Below are positions 2,957-13,246 of a DNA stretch of 64,000 nt, piece by piece. Source of the stretch: Nitrososphaerota archaeon (GTDB lineage: Archaea > Thermoproteota > Nitrososphaeria > Nitrososphaerales > Gagatemarchaeaceae); the NCBI GenBank assembly GCA_027887045.1, contig JAPCJH010000002.1:508723-572722 (forward strand), in the 5' to 3' direction. Each line of letters opens with the position of its first letter. Position 1 is the first letter of the stretch. The position numbers and the translations under genes were made by a program. A model generated the notes under the pieces. The model was not told the origin of the DNA. It did not search any database and was given only the letters and a program-made list of their open reading frames with translations.

Positions 2957-5133
2957 CTACAGAGTGAAGAAGGCGGCGTCGTAGTATGAAGTGCTATAGG
3001 TGGAGCCTATGGCGGCAATCTGGAACGACGAAGACACCAACGGAAGAGTCACCTGAAGTTTGAAGTAGAATGGAGTGGTCGTGAAAAACCAGGTGTTGCC
3101 CGCGTCATAGCTATAGGCTATCGAGAGTTGCTCCCCGCTCCCAGATGCAAACTTGTCGTAAGCCATCACCAAGTTTCCGCCGATGGAGCTCATCGCCCCA
3201 GAGTCTATTCCTGTTGCTACTGCCGAAGACGCTGATGAAAGAGCCAGCGTGTCGAAGTTGTACGACCACCAAGCTAGGTTCCCTGCGGAGTTTCTCCCTC
3301 CGAAGAAAGCGGTGTCTCCCACGTACGTTCCTGAAGATGATGCATAACAGAGCGGAGATCCAGCTGCACTTACGGGGCCAGTGGGCACTGTCCAGCTCTG
3401 ACCAAGGTTTGTCGTGTAGACAAAATAGTCCCCGCTACACGCTGAGCTAGACGAGATGTAGTCGAGAATGATGTCGCCGTTAGGAAGGGCAATGAGCTGA
3501 GGAATCGGATCGTAGGTGAGTGCGGGACTTACGTAGACGCTGTTCCACGGTGCGGCCGTGGCGGAGCTGGCGTAAGCCGCTTGGAGGCTGATTTCTTGCA
3601 CTTCCAGATAGTAATTGGGGCTGTTGTATTCGTCTATGGCCGCCCATAGATGACCGGACTGGTCTCCAACGATAGAGATGTAGTTCTGCGCCGGATATTT
3701 TGTCACCTCGTTCAGACCCTGTCCACAAGTTCCCGTGGCCCAGAGCCAAGATATTCCGGATCCTCTGAGAGTCCCGATAGTAAAATACCAATTGCCGCTG
3801 CTGCTCGCCGCATAAAACAATTGATCGTGGACTGAAAGACGTCGAAGTTGTATCCCCAGAACGGGCATGAGGCGGGTTGGCCGCCGACCCCTCCCGTCCC
3901 GATCCTCGTCCAGCTTGTTCCTGAGTACGAGGTCATCTCGTAATAGATACCCGCAGGCTGCCCCGAACCGGCGCCCGTGCTCGAATAGAAGAACCCATAG
4001 TATGTATTGTCCCAAAGCGCCGTTTTGTGCTCCCTCGGGTATCCATCCCTGACCGTGGCGGTTGTGTCAATAGACTGTACGTTCGGGGGAGTGATGACTG
4101 TTGAGTAGGTCGTCGAGGCGCTTTGGCCATCGGCGCCGGTAGCCACGATAAGCAGCGAATACATGGCATTCGTACTGGAGCCTGAATATGAGATACTCAT
4201 CGTGGTCGTAGCACTGCTCATGGAGTTGGAAACGGCTGCGGGTGAGAACAAGACGGACACTCCTGCGGGGAGACTGGGAGCAGAGAAAGCGACGCTCTGA
4301 GGTTGACCTGAAATGGTGATCCTAGTACTGCGTGAGACTCCTGATCCCTGGGCGATTCCATCTTTCAGAGGTACGACGCTGGAGATACTGACACCCGGCA
4401 CGAAATTGGCGGTCTCGCTGATCTGACCTGTCAGGGTCAACGTCGCGGGATTGTTCGGGCCCGAATACGACCCTGAACCTGACCCTGACCACGATGAAAA
4501 GGCATACCCTGACGAGGGGGTTGCGATAATCTGAAGCATCTGCCCGCTACAGACCGATTGCACTCCGGCGGGGATGGTGGCCCCCGAGCCCGCAGGAGAA
4601 ACCTGCATCGTAAGACTCACTACTGTGGTTGAACAGGAGTTCGGCACCGTACCTGAGCCCGAGTTTGTCGAGGGAAACCAGAAAGTGTTTCCGAGCGAGG
4701 TCGCGATACCAACCGCGCTCCCCGGAGTCGGATTCGCCAATATCGAGTTATACCGCTGGAGGCACGTCTCTCCTCCGCAAGGACTGTTGGGAATGACGGC
4801 TTGAACCTGAGCCGCCCCGCTGGAGGGCAACAGGAACGATTGCGCCAAGTTGTATACGGTGCCGTTTGCAAACTTGAGCAGGACGGCTACGAGCTTTGAT
4901 GAGGTGGTTCCTCCATTCGTCACCGAAAGGCCGTTTGAACCGCGGGCCAACGTGAGCAATTCTTTTCCGTGCTGGTTTACGAGTTGCTGCGCCTGCTGCG
5001 CTGCCACGGTTGATTGGACTTGAAGGGACGAGAAGTAGGCTAATGCGACGAACGCGGCCATGAAGACTATGATGAACAGGATGGTGCCTATCACAGAAGC
5101 GACCGCTCTCCGCCCGTTGCGTTTTGGTTTCAA
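2957..5133 (-). CDS. pilin-anchored beta-propeller adhesin, split by a frameshift
   Basis: Two adjoining frames together give one protein of about 725 residues. The N-terminus (GRRAVASVIGTILFIIVF) is a class III prepilin-like signal with one hydrophobic helix. Around residues 165-245 the SPAGSGATIPAGVQ ... GYAFSSWSG ... ATLTLTG pattern fits a divergent InlB B-repeat. A beta-sandwich follows, then a long region with repeated Tyr/Trp-rich blades (SYSGTSWTRIG, YSYDAGNTWFF) like BNR/sialidase propellers. The frame changes near 3835-3837, where adding one T to TTT on the coding strand gives DVFSVHDQLFY without a break. It is the last gene of the pilus operon, 30 nt after its neighbour. Likely a minor pilin or tip adhesin. 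The upstream frame alone would make about 430 correct residues. Confidence 0.75.
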
Positions 5134-5163
5134 TCAGAAACACTCAATTCAGGTCGGAAATCA

Positions 5164-5664
5164 TTATCCCGGAACCGCGGGGACCTGCTGCAACCCCTGC
5201 GCGATGGGAGTGGCGCTTACAGAGATGAGGTACATGCCGCCGACGGCGAAAATGTTGCCCGTCATCGTGAGAGTCACGAGCAGCGACTGACCCGGGAGAA
5301 GGCTTGAGCAGATGGTGACAGAGGCAGGGTTAGTCCCCATTCCGCAGGTAGACGACGGTGCTGACGAAGGGTTTTCGGGATTCACGAGCGAGAGGTAGAA
5401 AGCGCCCGAGGAGGGAGAACCCTGGGTGGTTAGAGTGAACGAAGTTAAGGGGACCGTCCCGGTGTTGAGAATCGCAAGTTTCTCAACGGCCACATCGAGC
5501 CCCTGCCTGAGGGAACTAGACGATATGGTAAGACCTGGACCCTGCGCAGAAACCCCGTATTGAGTTGCCGTCGAGTAGACGTAGGCTGATCCGGCCATCA
5601 CCAAAGCAATCAGGGTGAAGCTCTCTATGTACGCGGCGATGGCGACCCGGTTTCTACGTCTCAA
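5164..5664 (-). CDS. type IV pilin-like protein 3
   Basis: A 166-residue protein with an N-terminal helix (AAYIESFTLIALVMAG) behind a basic MRRRNRV start, as in archaeal pilins processed by a PibD-type peptidase. The rest is Ser/Thr/Gly-rich beta structure with two spaced Cys (TCGMG and TICSS) that could form a disulfide outside the cell. Its start overlaps the end of the upstream pilin-like gene by 11 nt, indicating translational coupling. The role, minor or structural pilin, is inferred from context. Confidence 0.75.
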   Translation of the reverse strand: MRRRNRVAIAAYIESFTLIALVMAGSAYVYSTATQYGVSAQGPGLTISSSSLRQGLDVAVEKLAILNTGTVPLTSFTLTTQGSPSSGAFYLSLVNPENPSSAPSSTCGMGTNPASVTICSSLLPGQSLLVTLTMTGNIFAVGGMYLISVSATPIAQGLQQVPAVPG

Positions 5665-6133
5665 ATTGCACCTCGTCTCCAGATGTATCGACGAGAAGTA
5701 TGATCTGGCCAGACGGATGAGCGCAAGTTGGCAAGGTTAGCGTAAAGGTGGTCATCGCGTTGGGCGCGATCTTACCGTACCCGCTGCCGCCGTACAGTGT
5801 CAAGTTTACGAAGACCTCCCCGGGTGAGAAAGTCGTCGTGCCGTAGTCGTAGAAAGTCAATATCAGAACATTCCCTTCGTTGTAGCCCCCGTAGAGGGGG
5901 CAACTCTGACTCGGTGTGCTCGTTGAATAGATGAGCGAAACAAGCTTCCCGACAGAGGCCTCCTGCGAAGACGCGGCAAAGGCGTCAGCGTTCTGAGCCA
6001 GATTGAACTGGCTTATGGCGGTGTTCGTAACATACCCACCGAAGCCGAGTGTTACACCGATCATCATGATCGAAGCCAGCAACTCGCTTACTCCGCGCCG
6101 TCTTCTAGTCCTGATGCCAAGGAACGCTTTCAT
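5654..6133 (-). CDS. type IV pilin-like protein 2
   Basis: A 159-residue protein with RRRRG followed by VSELLASIMMIGVTLGFGG, the clearest class III prepilin signal in this operon (charged end, Gly/Ala before the cleavage point, then a hydrophobic helix with an early Glu). The exported part is beta-rich with two Cys (SCPLYGG and PTCAHP). It lies 43 nt after pilin-like gene 1 and overlaps gene 3. The Glu near the start of the helix is the residue that orients type IV pilin assembly in known systems. Confidence 0.8.
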   Translation of the reverse strand: MKAFLGIRTRRRRGVSELLASIMMIGVTLGFGGYVTNTAISQFNLAQNADAFAASSQEASVGKLVSLIYSTSTPSQSCPLYGGYNEGNVLILTFYDYGTTTFSPGEVFVNLTLYGGSGYGKIAPNAMTTFTLTLPTCAHPSGQIILLVDTSGDEVQFET

Positions 6134-6176
6134 GGCAATAAAGGGGGAGGGCGCGGAGACTCCGTGTGAGTCTCCG

Positions 6177-6695
6177 TTACTCCGCCACCAGCTTAGCTGA
6201 GAGGGAGTCGGTGCCGACCTGGATGCTCGCAGTGTAGGTGCCGCCAGATGTTATGGATGCTGTGCCGGTCAGAGTGACAGAGAAGGAAACCTGAGCCCCG
6301 GGAGCCAGCGTGACAGGAGATGTCCATGTGAGTGGTGTTGTCGAGGTGCACGAACCATTGCCGCTCGCGGGTTGTGTCCACGTGACTGAGCCCGTAGCCG
6401 TACACGTGGCGCCCGTTGCGCCGTTCACGCCGATTGTTATCGTTGCTGTTGGGTTGTTCAGTGTTTGTGTCCCCACGTTCTTCACCGTGAGGCTCAGGGA
6501 TGCGGGATTCCCCCCGACCAATGTTGATTGTGTTATCTGCAGAGTTGATGTTGAAGCCCCTGATCCGATTATTCCGAGCACCGCGGCGGTCGTTACGCCG
6601 CCTGCCGCGAGAACTGCTGCGATGATGATGAAGAGATCCAGACTTTGCGAGAGTGCACGTCGTCTTGAACTTTTCAGTAACCTATCTGTTTTCAT
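6177..6695 (-). CDS. type IV pilin-like protein 1 (probable major pilin)
   Basis: A 172-residue protein with a basic leader (KSSRRRA) and the helix LSQSLDLFIIIAAVLAAGG, followed by a Thr-rich CARDB-like beta-sandwich (SLSLTVKNVGTQTLNNP). Two Cys (ATCTAT, GSCTST) may form a disulfide. A strong TATA-like CTTAAATATTCC lies 23 nt before the ATG and separates it from the platform gene by 93 nt, so this gene has its own promoter. That, and its compact size, suggest it is the abundant structural pilin. Surface fibre subunit; assembly would use the ATPase and platform encoded just upstream. Confidence 0.75.
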   Translation of the reverse strand: MKTDRLLKSSRRRALSQSLDLFIIIAAVLAAGGVTTAAVLGIIGSGASTSTLQITQSTLVGGNPASLSLTVKNVGTQTLNNPTATITIGVNGATGATCTATGSVTWTQPASGNGSCTSTTPLTWTSPVTLAPGAQVSFSVTLTGTASITSGGTYTASIQVGTDSLSAKLVAE

Positions 6696-6711
6696 GCCGA
6701 TGTAGGTGAGA

Positions 6712-6723
6712 GGAATATTTAAG
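6712..6723 (-). promoter_or_regulatory. internal promoter before the pilin genes
   Basis: CTTAAATATTCC on the minus strand, centred 23 nt before the ATG at 6695 and inside the pilus operon. It would allow pilins to be made in excess of the ATPase and platform protein. Confidence 0.5.
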
Positions 6724-6788
6724 ATGCAACCTCGTGTTCGGTCGAGACGCCGTCGGTCGGAACTTCCCCTGCGCTTCAGACAAAGACG

Positions 6789-8864
6789 TCAAGGAGTGAG
6801 ATGCAGGAGCGACGTTATGTTGATCTGAGTGAAGAGATAAGCCACCGAAGTCGCGAGCATGACGTTCATCGAAGCACGTAGCGTGTTCTTGACTGTCAGA
6901 TCAAGCATCTTCGCCCCGATTATCCCGAGGGCAGCAGAAGAAACCACGATGAGAAGATTGGAGACCTCCCTCAACTGTGAAGGCACGGTCCCGACAGCAA
7001 GGTTCGCTACGTGGATACTCGCGAGGCCCGGTTGAACAAGAGAGCTGAATGAATTCAGGACCCCGCTGATGAAAGTGACGCCGAACGCAATCATCACCGG
7101 TGAAAAATAGGAGAGCAGAACGTACGGGCGCATCTCCGCCTTGGTATTCTTCTTCATCTCGACCACCCTAGTGGTGTAGGTTGAGAGCTGGTAAACCGTT
7201 TCGACAGTACCTCCGCCGGAGTGTCCCATCTGGCCCAGCACGAACAGAACCAGCCTGGCTAGTTTACTCTTGGGGTCCACTGTCACCTCGTTGAGAGGGG
7301 TCCCGACCCTGAGCTGGGCCGCTATTCCAGAAAGTACTTTGTCGAAAGAAGAAGTGTACCTGTTGTGTGCCGCGATAGCCAAGATCGATCTGGTGAGATC
7401 GTAGTCCTGCCTCTTGAATTCCATCAGGTCCTTTGTGAACTCAGGAAGCGCCTCCTCCATCTCTCTCATCTCGCGTTGCTGTTTCACGACGGAGAAGCCG
7501 TACACGGTCAGGAATAGGAATAACGTGGACGCGGCACCAAGCCAAGCCTCGCGGGTGAGCAAGCCCAACACCAACCCAGGAGCCGCCAGAACCAAGCTTC
7601 TCTTGGGATTCCCGACCAGGGGCTCTTCCCCGACCGGTTGCATCCTGCTCGCCATGAAGACCAGCATGACGGTGAAGGTTGGGACGCCCAGCAGCGCAAA
7701 TATTGTAAGGTCGATGATGGACGTCGCTGGAGAGAAGATGCCGACGATCAATAGGATCATCGGGATTACGCCAAAGATCGTTATCATCATGCTGCCGATT
7801 ATCCCAGCTCGGGAAGAGTACCTGTTCCAGGTCTCTTCCAGCGCGCGGAGAAGCGTACCACTCTCGCCGAGCAGATACGATGGGATGTCCCCGCCCGATC
7901 GGACCTTGCTCGTGTATCCGTAGAGAAAGGAGGCGAACTTCCGTGAGGGATGGTACGACGCAAGATTCTCGAATGACTCAATCGGGTTCGTACCGAAGAT
8001 GGTGACGTCGCGCTTGATCAGGAGACTCTCATTTCGAATGAACTTGAAGATCTTTGTGTTCGCGACGCTGACGAAGATCGTGTAGAGTGGGACGCCCGCG
8101 CTCCCCAAGACATTCACCAGAATCGAGAAGAAGGGAAGCTCTCTCTCAACGCCGACGCGACGCTCCCCCGCCCGATCTTTGAGCCTAAGTTCCGGCGCCA
8201 CGTAAATAATTCCTGGAACAATGGCGAGCAACAAGATCGGGTACCAAACGAGCAACCCGAAAGCGAGCGCGGCGGGAATCGAGATGATCGCAGCGAGGAA
8301 CGACCTTCTCACGGAGCTCGCGGCGAGTAGGTAAGGGTTCCCGATTACCCCTGATTTGGCCAAAAGCGACGAAAATCGTTTTGCCCTGTATTCCGCCAAC
8401 AGCCTGAGTCTGTCCTTCCCGGCGACGAGCTTGACGACTTTCTCTTCCATTATCGTTTCAGAAGATGGGATGCGGGTTGTCCCCTTGAGGGGGTAGACGC
8501 CTCGGATTACTAGTACGGTGAAGACAAGGAGAGCTGGTAACGGAATGAACAGCCAATCGGAACCGAACGTGTGGTAAGCATAATACAACGACACCGCGGT
8601 GCTCCCGGCAATTATTACGACGGGAATCCTCAGATCATAAGCAAGTAAGTTATTGGATACATTTCCAAGGAAGCTCAGATTCCGGGCGAGGGAATAGAGA
8701 AGAGCCATCACGCCGCACAGGCTGAGATTGAGCAGGAAGACTCCTTCGAGCTGGGACCCGAGTGTGTTCAGGCTTACGAGGTTCGCATAAGAATAGAGCG
8801 TCAGCAAGGCGAAAGCGAGGAGCAGGAGCTGGAGGATGGTCCTCCTTGCCAAGGAAGAGTTCAC
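6789..8864 (-). CDS. type IV pilus membrane platform protein (TadC/ArlJ family)
   Basis: A 691-residue membrane protein with several hydrophobic clusters: an N-terminal group (residues 10-130), then two T2SF-like halves, each a soluble helical segment followed by transmembrane helices. The motif LPEFTKDLMEFKRQDYDL and GQMGHSGGGTVETVYQLST are typical of archaeal pilus platform proteins. It sits in the cytoplasmic membrane and couples ATP hydrolysis to pilin insertion. Its start is 5 nt from the end of the ATPase gene, so they are co-transcribed. The length is larger than ArlJ of archaella and closer to archaeal adhesion pilus platforms. Confidence 0.9.
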   Translation of the reverse strand: MNSSLARRTILQLLLLAFALLTLYSYANLVSLNTLGSQLEGVFLLNLSLCGVMALLYSLARNLSFLGNVSNNLLAYDLRIPVVIIAGSTAVSLYYAYHTFGSDWLFIPLPALLVFTVLVIRGVYPLKGTTRIPSSETIMEEKVVKLVAGKDRLRLLAEYRAKRFSSLLAKSGVIGNPYLLAASSVRRSFLAAIISIPAALAFGLLVWYPILLLAIVPGIIYVAPELRLKDRAGERRVGVERELPFFSILVNVLGSAGVPLYTIFVSVANTKIFKFIRNESLLIKRDVTIFGTNPIESFENLASYHPSRKFASFLYGYTSKVRSGGDIPSYLLGESGTLLRALEETWNRYSSRAGIIGSMMITIFGVIPMILLIVGIFSPATSIIDLTIFALLGVPTFTVMLVFMASRMQPVGEEPLVGNPKRSLVLAAPGLVLGLLTREAWLGAASTLFLFLTVYGFSVVKQQREMREMEEALPEFTKDLMEFKRQDYDLTRSILAIAAHNRYTSSFDKVLSGIAAQLRVGTPLNEVTVDPKSKLARLVLFVLGQMGHSGGGTVETVYQLSTYTTRVVEMKKNTKAEMRPYVLLSYFSPVMIAFGVTFISGVLNSFSSLVQPGLASIHVANLAVGTVPSQLREVSNLLIVVSSAALGIIGAKMLDLTVKNTLRASMNVMLATSVAYLFTQINITSLLHLTP

Positions 8865-8869
8865 TGCGA

Positions 8870-10555
8870 TTACCTTTCAAATTCGTGCCGAGATTCCTTC
8901 GCGACGTACTCCCTCACCATCGAGGAAAGCTTCTCGCTGTTGAACTCCCCGCTGCTTATCGCATTCGCGATGTAGGCTGCCCTGTTGGACAGGCTGCTGA
9001 TGACGTGATTGTAGACCCAGCCGAAGCTTTCAGCTATTTCCTTCAGTCGGAAGCTTCTTTCCAGTACTGCCTCGGGTGTGGTGGGGGAGAAGGAATCCTT
9101 CGAATAATCGTATTTGAAAACGTTCACTATCTCATGTGAGTCCGCGCCGACCGGGCGGATTTCGTCAACGCTCACAACCCTGCGCACGATCCTGCCATCA
9201 GGAAGGAAGATCTTTCTGATCGTTGCGATGGCGGTTATGTCCCTGACGTGGCCGAGCGTGAAGCGCATCGGGGGAGTAGTGACTCGCTGGACGCAACGCT
9301 GCGCGTCTTCTGCGTGGACCGTCGTGATGGTAGAGAACCCCAGCGTTATTGCCGCGGCAACGGTTTCGGATTCTTCTCCTCTCATTTCACCAAGCGACAG
9401 GATTGTGGGCGAGAATCTGAGAGACAGCTTCAGGAGGTCGGAAAGATTGTATTCGTAATTCCCAGATGTGGGGGAAAGCCCGGCGCGATAGAACCTCGTC
9501 TTCAATCTCTGCCAGTGCAGGTGAGGCGGCAGGTTGATTTCGAGGACGTCTTCGGCGGTCACGATCTTCGCCTTAGGATTCATCATCGAGAGAATCGCGT
9601 TCATGAGGGTCGTCTTGCCGGAGCTGGTTTCGCCTGCAATGAGCACGTTCGTCGTTCTTTCCATTAGCAGCCAGAAATAGGCGGCCATAAGTGCAGATAG
9701 TGTCTTGTGAGAGTGGGTCTCTGCGTAGACGAGTCTCCGTTCCAGGGACACCGGAACTCGCTGAGGATACGACCGGGCCGATTCCGGAGACGCGAGCTGA
9801 ACGATCGTGAGTGGATTCTCTTTCTGTTTTCTTATCGTGAAGGTTGAGCCGGGCCTGGAAATCTCGTCACCTAACGTCGCGGAAATCCTCCTGTCAGATG
9901 CGCCGTGGAGAGTGACCTCCAGCGAGGGTTGTGCTAGAGAAACGGTTGTTCCCCCGAACTGCGCAAGTCGGCGGATGAACGCTTGGAGCCTATCTTCGCT
10001 TTGGTATAGGATGTTCGTTTCCATGAACATGTACTCGGTATGTTTGCGATGGAATACCCTGACCGGCCTGTCGAACTTGGTGACCGAGATTTCTTCTATG
10101 TCGTCGTCGTTTATCAGTGGGTCCACCTCCCAGAAACCCGCGAAGTCCTTGAGGAGATAGTACAGAAACTTCGCTGGAGACCTTTTCACCGTCGATGTGA
10201 TGCCCGCCTTCTCGGCCGTCTCCCACAGGTACTCTTCGAGAATTTCCTCTGCGCTCCCCGAAGTCTCGACCGGGATTGCGCTGCGTAGATTCTCCTTTAG
10301 TAGGTCTAGGGCCTGAATTTCGGCCACGTCGAGCGGAGGGAGCTTGATGAAATGTTGACCGAAGGAATTGTCATCGACGATGAAGACCTGTGCGGACGCG
10401 TCTAAGCCGGCCTTCTGCGGTACCCGATACGTGTCTACGATCTTTCCTTGAATCGACGTCGGAAGAAGTAGGGTTGCTTCAGGCGGTTCTGAGCTCTTAG
10501 TATCCGAGCTAATTCCAGACAACGGACTATGCCTGAGTCTTCCAATTTGGACCAA
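8870..10555 (-). CDS. type IV pilus assembly ATPase (VirB11/GspE/ArlI family)
   Basis: A 561-residue secretion ATPase. The Walker A is GETSSGKTTL, the Walker B region ILSLGEMRGEE, and the His box TTVHAEDAQ; an N-terminal domain (residues 1-250) precedes the RecA-like core. It forms a hexamer at the membrane and powers pilus assembly with the platform protein encoded 5 nt downstream. Start is TTG at 10555. It is the first gene of a six-gene minus-strand operon. No ArlH-type (RecA-like) gene or archaellum stator genes are present, which favours an adhesion pilus over an archaellum. The prepilin peptidase is not in the window. Confidence 0.92.
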   Translation of the reverse strand: MVQIGRLRHSPLSGISSDTKSSEPPEATLLLPTSIQGKIVDTYRVPQKAGLDASAQVFIVDDNSFGQHFIKLPPLDVAEIQALDLLKENLRSAIPVETSGSAEEILEEYLWETAEKAGITSTVKRSPAKFLYYLLKDFAGFWEVDPLINDDDIEEISVTKFDRPVRVFHRKHTEYMFMETNILYQSEDRLQAFIRRLAQFGGTTVSLAQPSLEVTLHGASDRRISATLGDEISRPGSTFTIRKQKENPLTIVQLASPESARSYPQRVPVSLERRLVYAETHSHKTLSALMAAYFWLLMERTTNVLIAGETSSGKTTLMNAILSMMNPKAKIVTAEDVLEINLPPHLHWQRLKTRFYRAGLSPTSGNYEYNLSDLLKLSLRFSPTILSLGEMRGEESETVAAAITLGFSTITTVHAEDAQRCVQRVTTPPMRFTLGHVRDITAIATIRKIFLPDGRIVRRVVSVDEIRPVGADSHEIVNVFKYDYSKDSFSPTTPEAVLERSFRLKEIAESFGWVYNHVISSLSNRAAYIANAISSGEFNSEKLSSMVREYVAKESRHEFER

Positions 10556-10685
10556 GGTCTTCCTCGCTATGCTACTTTTCCTCGGATTAGGGGTGACTCA
10601 GGTTGTGGGCTGGTCTCGGGCGTTGCATAGAATGAATCTGTCGCGGCGCATATAAGGGGCCACTAGAATCGCAGGACCGAGAAGA

Positions 10686-11003
10686 GTGGAATTCCTCTAT
10701 CTCACAACAATTGGATGGAAGTCAGGAAAGCCCCATGAGATTGAGATTTGGTTCGTCGAACGCGGTTCAATGTACTACGTTGTCTCAGAAATGGGGCGCG
10801 CATCTCATTGGGTGCAGAACATCATCCGCAATCCCTTGGTTTCCGTCAAGGTGAGCGGCGAGAAAGCCGAGGGCACGGGGAGGCTTGTGAGCAGGGAGGC
10901 TGAGCCAGAGCTCACGCATGAGGTCGCAGCCCTCATGAGCTCAAAGTACAAGTGGAGCGACGGTCTGATCGTTGAACTAGCCCCATCAAGATCAAGGCCC
11001 TAA
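10686..11003 (+). CDS. F420/FMN-dependent nitroreductase-like protein
   Basis: A 105-residue split-barrel protein. LTTIGWKSGKPHEIEIWF matches the opening motif of the deazaflavin-dependent (Ddn-like) nitroreductase family, which binds F420H2 or flavin and reduces quinones or nitro compounds. WVQNIIRNPLVSVKV is the second conserved motif. Start is GTG at 10686; a TATA-like CATATAAGG lies about 30 nt upstream. The C-terminal half is shorter than typical Ddn proteins (about 130-150 residues), but the barrel motifs are intact. The substrate is not predictable. Confidence 0.75.
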   Translation: MEFLYLTTIGWKSGKPHEIEIWFVERGSMYYVVSEMGRASHWVQNIIRNPLVSVKVSGEKAEGTGRLVSREAEPELTHEVAALMSSKYKWSDGLIVELAPSRSRP

Positions 11004-11006
11004 CCC

Positions 11007-11222
11007 CTAACCCGCACCCTTGACCGCTGCCAGTGCTTTCATCTTAGCCTTCTCCCTCGCGACGGTCTTAAGAGCCGCAATTGTCCAGAAAACGTCCTCC
11101 TTTACACAGAGGTATCGCCCGGGGACCCCTGTGCGCTTCAACTTGGAATTGCAATTCGGGCAGCGCCTGATCCTTCTCACGATTTTCTTTTTCCTTCTGC
11201 GACGCTTCCGGGTCCCACTCAT
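11007..11222 (-). CDS. small basic zinc-ribbon protein
   Basis: A 71-residue protein with a very basic N-terminus (TRKRRRRKKKIVRRIRR), then CPNCNSKLKRTGVPGRYLC, with three Cys that may bind zinc with a fourth ligand missing or replaced. The C-terminus is Lys/Ala-rich. The charge suggests nucleic acid binding. It converges with the nitroreductase-like gene, ending 3 nt apart. Function unknown. Confidence 0.6.
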   Translation of the reverse strand: MSGTRKRRRRKKKIVRRIRRCPNCNSKLKRTGVPGRYLCVKEDVFWTIAALKTVAREKAKMKALAAVKGAG

Positions 11223-11317
11223 TTGCTCGATTCATCCACAAAGGAAGATTCGAAGATTCCTTGCACGCGCAAGTGACGCGAGACGTTCTCTTAATTTTTG
11301 TTATCTGCCGATCGCGT

Positions 11318-11521
11318 TCACCGGAATCTGGCCTTCCCTATGTTGGGGCTGAACTCGAACCCGCATTTCAAGCAGCGACGCATCCCGGGGGCGTCCGTGA
11401 TCTCCTGCCTCGTGCCGCAGCGCGGGCATTCGAGCGTGATCTTCCCTGGAGAGATCGCGTCTCGGTGAGCCTCGCGTACCCTGTCGATCGCGTTCTTGTA
11501 CGCGTCCCTCTGTTTTCTCAA
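11318..11521 (-). CDS. small zinc-ribbon protein
   Basis: A 67-residue protein with a helical N-terminal third (RDAYKNAIDRVREAHRDA) and a four-Cys zinc ribbon: CPRCGTRQEITDAPGMRRCLKCG split as CPRC and CLKC. It ends FSPNIGKARFR. This is a common archaeal design of unknown role, often nucleic acid or protein binding. It is the second such gene in a row on this strand. Confidence 0.65.
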   Translation of the reverse strand: MRKQRDAYKNAIDRVREAHRDAISPGKITLECPRCGTRQEITDAPGMRRCLKCGFEFSPNIGKARFR

Positions 11522-11638
11522 ATTCCTTTCAAGTCTCCGTCCCGGCTGCCACTATAAGGCCTTGTGAGCCATTGCGGCGGCTTGCTCCAAGAGAAACAAT
11601 CAAAAACTATTCTAGCAAGAAGGTTCCACGGTGAGCAG

Positions 11639-13246
11639 ATGAGCGCGGACCCTGTAAGCGAGACCACCTCCACTGCGGTTTTGAATCTGGGCCATGACGG
11701 GCGAACGCCGTTCACAGTCGACGCAAACCTGATAGCTACGGGGAGGACGTGTGTCCTGGGATCGAGCGGCAGCGGTAAGAGTTACGCTGTTGGGGTGATA
11801 TGTGAAGAGCTCTGCAGGAAGAAGGTCCCCTTCGCGCTCGTGGACACTGAAGGGGAATACTCGAACCTCAAAGAAAAATTCGGCGTAATCTGGGTGGGTG
11901 ACGACGTCGGATGCGACCTTCGCTGGGATGGAATCAACCTCCAGGAGCTCGCGGCCCAAGCTCCCGACATCGCCCCCTTGATTCTTGATGTTTCAGACCT
12001 GGAGAATCCCAGGGAGAAGATAGCCAGCCTTCTCACTTCCCTATATTCAGAGATATCAAGCCGACGGACTCCGTATCTCGTCATTCTGGAGGAGGCTGAC
12101 AAGTTCGTACCCCAGGCGGGGCAACGGGTGCAGATATTCGACGAAATCGCGAGACGAGGTCGCAAGCGCGGCCTCGGGTTGATGCTTTGCTCGCAGAGAC
12201 CCTCCCTCGTGGACAAGAACGTGCTGAGCCAGTGCGGTAACCAGCTCATAGGGAAGTTGATCATCCAGAACGACTTGAAGTCGGTCTCTCAGTTCTTTCC
12301 CGAAAGGGGTCTCCCTAAACAGCTCACCACCCTGAGGCCCGGGATGTTCTACGCCTTAGGGGGTCTTGTCGCCAGCCCCACACTCCTGACGGTCCGGAAG
12401 CGCGAATCGCGCCACGGAGGAGTGACGCCGATCCTAAGGGACAGGGTCGTCAAGCCTTACATGGGTACCCTGTCAACTTCAAGTCCGTTCGTTCGACCTG
12501 TCCAACGAGTGGGGGGCCCCGTAGTGCGAGGGGAGACCAAGCCTGGCCTACCGTTCCGAATCAAGGCGGATGACATACCAATCTACGTCAAACGCGAGAA
12601 GCGATTCCTCCTCTTTGGGAAGGACGAGACCGTAACGTCGGTCCAATCCATCTTCCACCCCCTGATTGAGGTAGGAGTCAGGCTGAGGAAGGGAGTTATC
12701 AAGAAGAAGTTCGAGACGTTTTACATTACGATTGATGGGATTTCAGGGAAACTAGCCGACATCGAAGAACGCCTCACTCTACACGAAGGATTTGAAAGGC
12801 TGATCGGATTGAGCGCGTTCCACCTGGAGGTGCTCCGGGGCGTGAGCACCGACAGTGATTCGAGTGTCATCGACATCGCGAGCAGGGTCGGGGACTCTAA
12901 GGGCTCCGTTAGGCGCGTTCTTAATCTTCTGGAGGAGAAAAGGCTCGTCAGGTCGATAGAGATGCGAAGGAACAAGCTCTTCCGACGCTTGATAGACATC
13001 CCGAAGGTCTCCTGGGAACGATCGCATTTGCGACTTGAGGATGTTGAGATGGGCGGGGCGAGGAGAGAAGAACCAAAGATCAAGGAGAAGGAAGTGAAGG
13101 ATATGATCAGGGGTCTGTGGGATGGAGCAGACCTGGACAGTTTCAACGTCGTCTTTTATCCCGTGTACAAGATTGAACTGACCCTGAAGCGGCGGAGGAG
13201 AGAGGTGTATCTCGATGGCAGGACAGGAAAGGACCTCCCCATCTAG
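11639..13246 (+). CDS. HerA-like (DUF87) ATPase with winged-helix C-terminus
   Basis: About 535 residues from ATG at 11639; the frame is open to 11564, but GGTGAG just before this ATG fits an archaeal ribosome-binding site. Walker A GSSGSGKSYA, Walker B region PYLVILEEADKFVP and IARRGRKRGLGLMLCSQRP (sensor/arginine region) are those of the HerA/FtsK-like DUF87 family. Residues 370-460 form a winged helix (IASRVGDSKGSVRRVLNLLEEKRLV), so DNA binding is likely. The family moves DNA or protein hexameric rings. No NurA or Rad50/Mre11 lies nearby, so it is a free-standing relative, not the repair HerA. Confidence 0.88.
   Translation: MSADPVSETTSTAVLNLGHDGRTPFTVDANLIATGRTCVLGSSGSGKSYAVGVICEELCRKKVPFALVDTEGEYSNLKEKFGVIWVGDDVGCDLRWDGINLQELAAQAPDIAPLILDVSDLENPREKIASLLTSLYSEISSRRTPYLVILEEADKFVPQAGQRVQIFDEIARRGRKRGLGLMLCSQRPSLVDKNVLSQCGNQLIGKLIIQNDLKSVSQFFPERGLPKQLTTLRPGMFYALGGLVASPTLLTVRKRESRHGGVTPILRDRVVKPYMGTLSTSSPFVRPVQRVGGPVVRGETKPGLPFRIKADDIPIYVKREKRFLLFGKDETVTSVQSIFHPLIEVGVRLRKGVIKKKFETFYITIDGISGKLADIEERLTLHEGFERLIGLSAFHLEVLRGVSTDSDSSVIDIASRVGDSKGSVRRVLNLLEEKRLVRSIEMRRNKLFRRLIDIPKVSWERSHLRLEDVEMGGARREEPKIKEKEVKDMIRGLWDGADLDSFNVVFYPVYKIELTLKRRRREVYLDGRTGKDLPI

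Follow-up and report, generated by a model that had tools for sequence, protein, structure and literature searches.

A modular pilin gene at the end of a conserved archaeal type IV pilus operon

The window analysed here is a stretch of 64,000 nt from a Nitrososphaerota archaeon (GCA_027887045.1, contig JAPCJH010000002.1, positions 508,723-572,722). Inspection of its minus strand between 2957 and 10555 reveals six genes in the order ATPase, platform protein, three small prepilins and a large head pilin gene. A first-pass annotation of this DNA had described six minus-strand genes here as a type IV pilus operon, and its coordinates and assignments are right for all but the last gene. The genes that precede the head pilin gene, together with the promoter element that lies among them, are listed below, with the positions of acidic helix residues counted here and throughout from the predicted cleavage point.

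8870..10555, minus strand: secretion/assembly ATPase of the VirB11/GspE/FlaI type, TTG start (PF00437, 3.6e-21)
6789..8864, minus strand: platform protein of the TadC/FlaJ type with two T2SSF domains (PF00482, 4.5e-15, two stretches)
6716..6723, minus strand: TATA-like element of the pilin promoter, CTTAAATA, at 21-28 nt 5' of the pilA start codon
6177..6695, minus strand: PilA, small prepilin of 172 aa, RRRA before the cleavage point and LSQSLDLFIIIAAVLAAGG after it, Asp at +6; prepilin helix kept in all loci
5654..6133, minus strand: PilB, small prepilin of 159 aa, RRRG before the cleavage point and VSELLASIMMIG after it, Glu at +3; orthologues 39-49% identical, 16 loci
5164..5664, minus strand: PilC, small prepilin of 166 aa, TTG start, A before the cleavage point and IAAYIESFTLIAL after it, Glu at +6; orthologues 30-44% identical, 16 loci

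The Pfam matches bear out the VirB11-type ATPase and the platform protein that had been proposed. The nearest solved sequences to the ATPase are 2oap, an archaeal type II secretion ATPase (2.3e-51), and 4ii7, which is FlaI (4.3e-39), and its orthologues in relatives are 62-75% identical. Platform orthologues, 49-58% identical, lie immediately 3' of the ATPase at 16 loci. Class III prepilin-type N-termini are present on four proteins of the locus, namely the head pilin and the three small proteins that had been called pilin-like. PilA is probably the main shaft subunit, and PilB and PilC are probable minor pilins; PilC of the window carries V-A in place of R-G ahead of its cleavage point. Calling the operon complete was too strong, as no prepilin peptidase was found in the window's own genome, which is only about 56% complete. 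The peptidase is present in most relatives.

The pilin genes were also said to have their own promoter, and comparison across loci agrees. An element of the form TTAWA starts 27-28 nt upstream of the pilA start at 15 of 16 loci, compared with 0.26% at random positions. The same element occurs upstream of the ATPase at 6 of 17 loci and never upstream of the platform gene, pilB or pilC among the loci compared. The short spacing between TTAWA and the start codon suggests that the pilA transcript is leaderless.

The last gene had been described as a 725-residue protein with a class III prepilin helix at its N-terminus and a body made of an InlB-like repeat and a BNR-like propeller. The prepilin-type N-terminus and the InlB-like repeat are both present, and the N-terminus is not a normal signal peptide lacking a prepilin site, since the prepilin-type site is conserved in all relatives. 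The length is mistaken: frame A stops at 473 codons, and the second half of the gene (2957-3811) lies in a different frame. The figure of 725 equals the span from 5133 to 2957 divided by three. The features of the gene are as follows.

3712..5133, minus strand: head pilin gene, frame A, 473 codons, covering the stalk, the InlB repeat, the Ig-like region and the propeller start, then about 33 out-of-frame codons
4675..5103, minus strand: pilin stalk module, from the mature helix VASVIGTILF... (predicted cleavage site RRA|VASV) to the TSLGNTFWF motif
4399..4608, minus strand: InlB-type B-repeat (Flg_new_2; PF18998, 2.2e-9, residues 176-245)
4096..4395, minus strand: probable Ig-like beta-sandwich region, placed by an alignment and by the model made for the homologue in genome G003, whose corresponding part has pLDDT mostly 55-79
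about 2960-4038, minus strand: probable propeller region as a whole, divided by the frame change
3814..3817, minus strand: TTTT, site of the -1 frame change
2957..3814, minus strand: head pilin gene, frame B, remaining probable propeller, assigned by codon usage and collinearity with the intact G003 protein
3392..3415, minus strand: Asp-box-like motif TTNLGQSW
3089..3112, minus strand: Asp-box motif SYDAGNTW

A single 725-aa gene was rejected as a reading of this region, in that no frame is open over the full length and codon-usage scores change frame at about 3815. Frame B is open without a stop through 285 codons. In G003 (CADDZR010000023.1, 'archaeon isolate 13_2'), one frame of 694 aa aligns to both halves across the junction, and the two sequences are identical at 216 of 664 aligned residues and collinear across the break. 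The G003 gene lies at the end of its contig, with the surrounding operon unseen. G003 and other relatives have a single continuous head-pilin frame, which in the window's genome is interrupted in its propeller part. Given the intact collinear homologue, the sequence comparison indicates that the fused stalk-to-propeller architecture exists as a type of protein and that the window's copy of it is frameshifted.

What caused the break can be weighed from the rest of the genome. A survey of 119 queries, covering 464 kb of the window's genome compared with genome G006, met no further frame change across 25,359 aligned residues; the method does pick up the break in the head gene, which served as the positive control. 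This survey replaced a stricter form that gave only 14 proteins. The break-free residues make general assembly noise less likely, and an indel-rich assembly is not supported as the cause. We give an even chance to the head gene being a recent pseudogene, where the frame change is genuine and the cell makes a truncated tip pilin, and for this the clean survey counts, as does codon usage that is intact on both sides of the break and so dates the change as recent. The truncated product would comprise the stalk, the InlB repeat, the Ig-like region and the propeller start. The downstream half, however, has no stop and no further decay, and one miscalled base in this short stretch of T could produce the same sequence. 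An assembly or base-calling error, such that the organism has an intact head gene as G003 does, is accordingly held to be a serious contender at a little under even: both halves retain coding codon usage and homology and the change sits in a T run, but the tract is merely four T long and the sampled remainder of the genome is free of such errors. It is highly improbable that programmed -1 frameshifting yields a short and a long head pilin. Although TTT could re-pair after a -1 slip at TG-TTTT-A and each frame is open on its own side, the classical slippery heptamer is absent, downstream folding is no better than that of shuffled sequence (z = 0.66) and the G003 homologue is read unshifted.

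The BNR-like propeller is moderately supported as a fold, through a strand pattern that matches beta-propellers in the PDB, while the BNR_4 match itself (8.6e-4) falls below Pfam's cut-off. The propeller region contains the two Asp-box motifs and has all-beta secondary structure. AlphaFold models built from 3 and 2 input sequences are of low confidence, with mean pLDDT of 49 and 42, respectively. Most PDB matches from a Foldseek search with the pLDDT 42 model are beta-propellers, among them a Photorhabdus lectin and sialidases, and TM-scores are 0.31 or less; these lists were used as support only. The PDB holds no sequence relatives of the propeller, and no PilY1-type propeller domain was matched in Pfam even at E up to 10. 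A search for the same propeller in 400 genomes of the order was convincing in G000 and G003 only, and one locus was found in a wider genome contig database. This part of the head is probably a propeller, whose blades may close into a ring.

A search of related genomes for the same gene order recovered the six genes in identical order at 16 loci, which are spread over 15 genomes from the window's family (genus g7), with two copies in G006. Across these loci the head pilin has a prepilin-type site, a stalk of about 140 residues and a TSLGNxFW-like motif at the stalk end, and the window's stalk shares 38-49% identity with those found in genus g7. The part that follows the stalk falls into several classes. 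Some relatives carry a glycine-rich domain (PF21722, 2.7e-10) that also matches the phage tail-fibre profile phrog_863 at 1.2e-12, though glycine-rich sequence tends to inflate such scores. Others carry a sandwich-like domain without a Pfam match, for which the PDB gives weak lectin matches only (0.03 and 0.08), to which we attach no weight. G006 has an InlB repeat followed by that sandwich-like domain, and the window and G003 have the InlB repeat, the Ig-like region and the propeller. The locus is an archaeal pilus operon with a modular pilin: the N-terminal class III pilin module is present, as is a non-pilus module (PF18998 in the window and PF21722 in relatives).

Comparison of individual loci indicates how stalk and head vary. 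The window and G006 have the stalk and InlB repeat in common and diverge beyond them. The window and G003 have the entire head in common, with stalks just 30% identical. In the ATPase tree, the sandwich-headed locus L039 is nested among glycine-headed loci in a clade with good support, and its head shares 62-64% identity with the sandwich heads of other loci, so either the head alone or the whole gene may have moved. A constant stalk with a head that varies by lineage would let binding specificity change while the machine stays unchanged. Other genera have pilin-anchored proteins of 918, 851 and 1816 aa next to pilin or ATPase genes. Across the phylum, the stalk profile has matches in frames whose lengths range from 130 to 2011 aa, and in the PDB it matches the archaeal filament subunit 8fk7 (0.0026). 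A pilin signal on a propeller adhesin had been called unusual; the signal is present as claimed, but among relatives a large pilin-anchored head is the rule for this operon, with several kinds of head, and bacterial modular pilins are familiar (PMC8179133). The open-access literature searched gave no description of a cassette with a constant stalk and exchangeable heads.

The N-terminal helices bear on where each subunit would sit in the filament. PilA has Asp6 at 16 of 16 loci, PilB has Glu3 at 17 of 17 and PilC has Glu6 at 14 of 17. At none of the 16 loci scored is any of the first 20 residues of the head pilin acidic. In bacteria, the minor pilin that caps the tip lacks Glu5 (PMC10790768, PMC10191384). 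By analogy with this rule, the head pilin is likely to cap the filament and thus to stand at its tip. We consider it quite likely overall that the last gene of this compact type IV pilus operon specifies a modular archaeal tip pilin with exchangeable heads, and the pseudogene reading of the window's copy is compatible with this explanation. A binding head on a type IV pilus, as first proposed, is favored by the gene order, the prepilin-type sites and the intact homologue, whereas in the window the gene is frameshifted; the head would serve in binding.

Alternative placements are judged unlikely. The large pilin might instead sit along the shaft or be a membrane-held surface protein, for in archaea a class III signal can also be carried by a large binding protein, as in the bindosome of Sulfolobus. 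The head pilin resembles the bindosome proteins in being large and bearing a class III signal, and no ABC-type substrate-binding domain, as in the bindosome sugar-binding proteins, was matched in the window or in the relatives' heads. Modular pilins with a flexible linker could also be placed in a shaft (PMC8179133). Against a shaft or membrane position, the helix acidic residue is missing in the head pilin only, and heads as bulky as those of the proteins of up to 1816 aa would be hard to repeat on a shaft. It is less likely still, and in our view quite improbable, that the operon builds a short secretion pseudopilus or a sugar-uptake assembly and not an adhesive pilus. A pilus and a pseudopilus are not told apart by gene content alone, but substrate-binding and transporter genes are absent from the cassette and the repeat, lectin-like or glycine-rich heads are typical adhesion domains.

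The tip pilin reading can be set beside known systems. Bacterial modular pilins are established, for example PilB and PilC of Streptococcus sanguinis (PMC8179133), in which a class III signal and a small pilin module likewise precede a functional domain that is larger and unrelated, with a likely tip position and adhesive domains. In contrast to these, the machine and pilin fold here are archaeal, and the heads are InlB/Ig/propeller, glycine-rich or sandwich-like and vary within one cassette. The bacterial K subunits GspK, PilK and ComGG, which cap tip complexes (PMC10790768), resemble the head pilin as the operon's last pilin without the acidic helix residue, and GspK is similarly enlarged; the pilin set here is smaller (three plus one). 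PilY1/PilC tip adhesins also represent a propeller-bearing adhesin presented by type IV pili, although PilY1 is not a pilin and no PilY1-type domain was matched here. Archaeal pili with possible adhesins were predicted in a census (Makarova et al. 2016, PMC4858521), as was a pilus with a possible adhesin in Ca. Nitrosocaldus cavascurensis (PMC5797428). These archaeal, including thaumarchaeal, pilus loci share with ours a large extra protein proposed as an adhesin; the descriptions of them consulted include neither a constant pilin stalk with exchangeable heads nor the acidic-residue pattern.

On this tip pilin reading, a prepilin peptidase encoded elsewhere would trim the four prepilins. PilA, expressed from its own promoter, would build the shaft, and PilB and PilC would form the priming set beneath the tip. 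The large pilin, whose helix lacks an acidic residue for pairing with a subunit ahead, would cap the filament, with the conserved stalk carrying its C-terminal domains outward. As the ATPase and platform protein extend the fibre, the head would make first contact with a surface, a polymer or an adjacent cell. The window's one-base frame change would remove most of the propeller, and the striking head protein is not an intact frame in the window's genome. If true, this explanation would make modular tip pilins a systematic design in archaea as well, in which the six-gene machine and the stalk stay fixed and the head can be exchanged. It would also supply a simple sequence rule for naming the capping subunit of archaeal pili, namely the prepilin without an acidic helix residue, through which the tip question becomes directly testable. 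The operon points to a possible determinant of attachment in archaea with few cultured members.

A broader and more tentative reading, which we hold at somewhat less than even, is that a non-ammonia-oxidising family keeps a conserved pilus cassette in which the tip stalk stays constant and the heads are exchanged by recombination, some of them like phage tail-fibre glycine-rich domains, such that attachment specificity is re-targeted much as phages do with their tail fibres. Archaeal AmoA is present in all six of the genomes examined from three further families of the order and absent from G003, G006 and G012 of the window's family, which suggests that this family belongs to the Nitrososphaerales but does not oxidise ammonia.

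In the relative G012, inspection of locus L036 reveals that pilA is interrupted by an insert of ~5.4 kb (about 6326-11741), which is a mobile element inside the main pilin gene. The insert has a GC content of 0.50 versus 0.61, is accompanied by an 8-bp target duplication (ATGGACCT) and carries 11-bp terminal inverted repeats (AATCTGTATAG/CTATACAGATT). Its products are a Cys-rich protein of 378 aa, a small protein of winged-helix-like type, and membrane proteins.

The complete genome of the relative G006 holds the six-gene operon twice, at L033 and L048, with heads that differ between the copies. The intact propeller-headed pilin of G003 (L075, 103-2187, on the same contig as L067) lies at a contig end, such that any pilus genes upstream of it are out of view. 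In relatives, the head genes of L034, L035, L038 and L040-L043 encode pilin-anchored glycine-rich domains (PF21722), and these heads also match phrog_863, a phage tail-fibre profile, a match to be read with caution given that scores rise with glycine-rich sequence. In the AmoA-bearing genome G087, a full-length stalk module (G087:C1:1566272-1566661, L120) is found within a 1711-aa frame, and very large pilin-anchored heads therefore occur in ammonia oxidisers too.

Adjoining the pilus operon of the window is a divergently transcribed gene:

11564-13246, plus strand, HerA-like ATPase (PF01935, 1.1e-12)

The C-terminal part of this ATPase is winged-helix-like.
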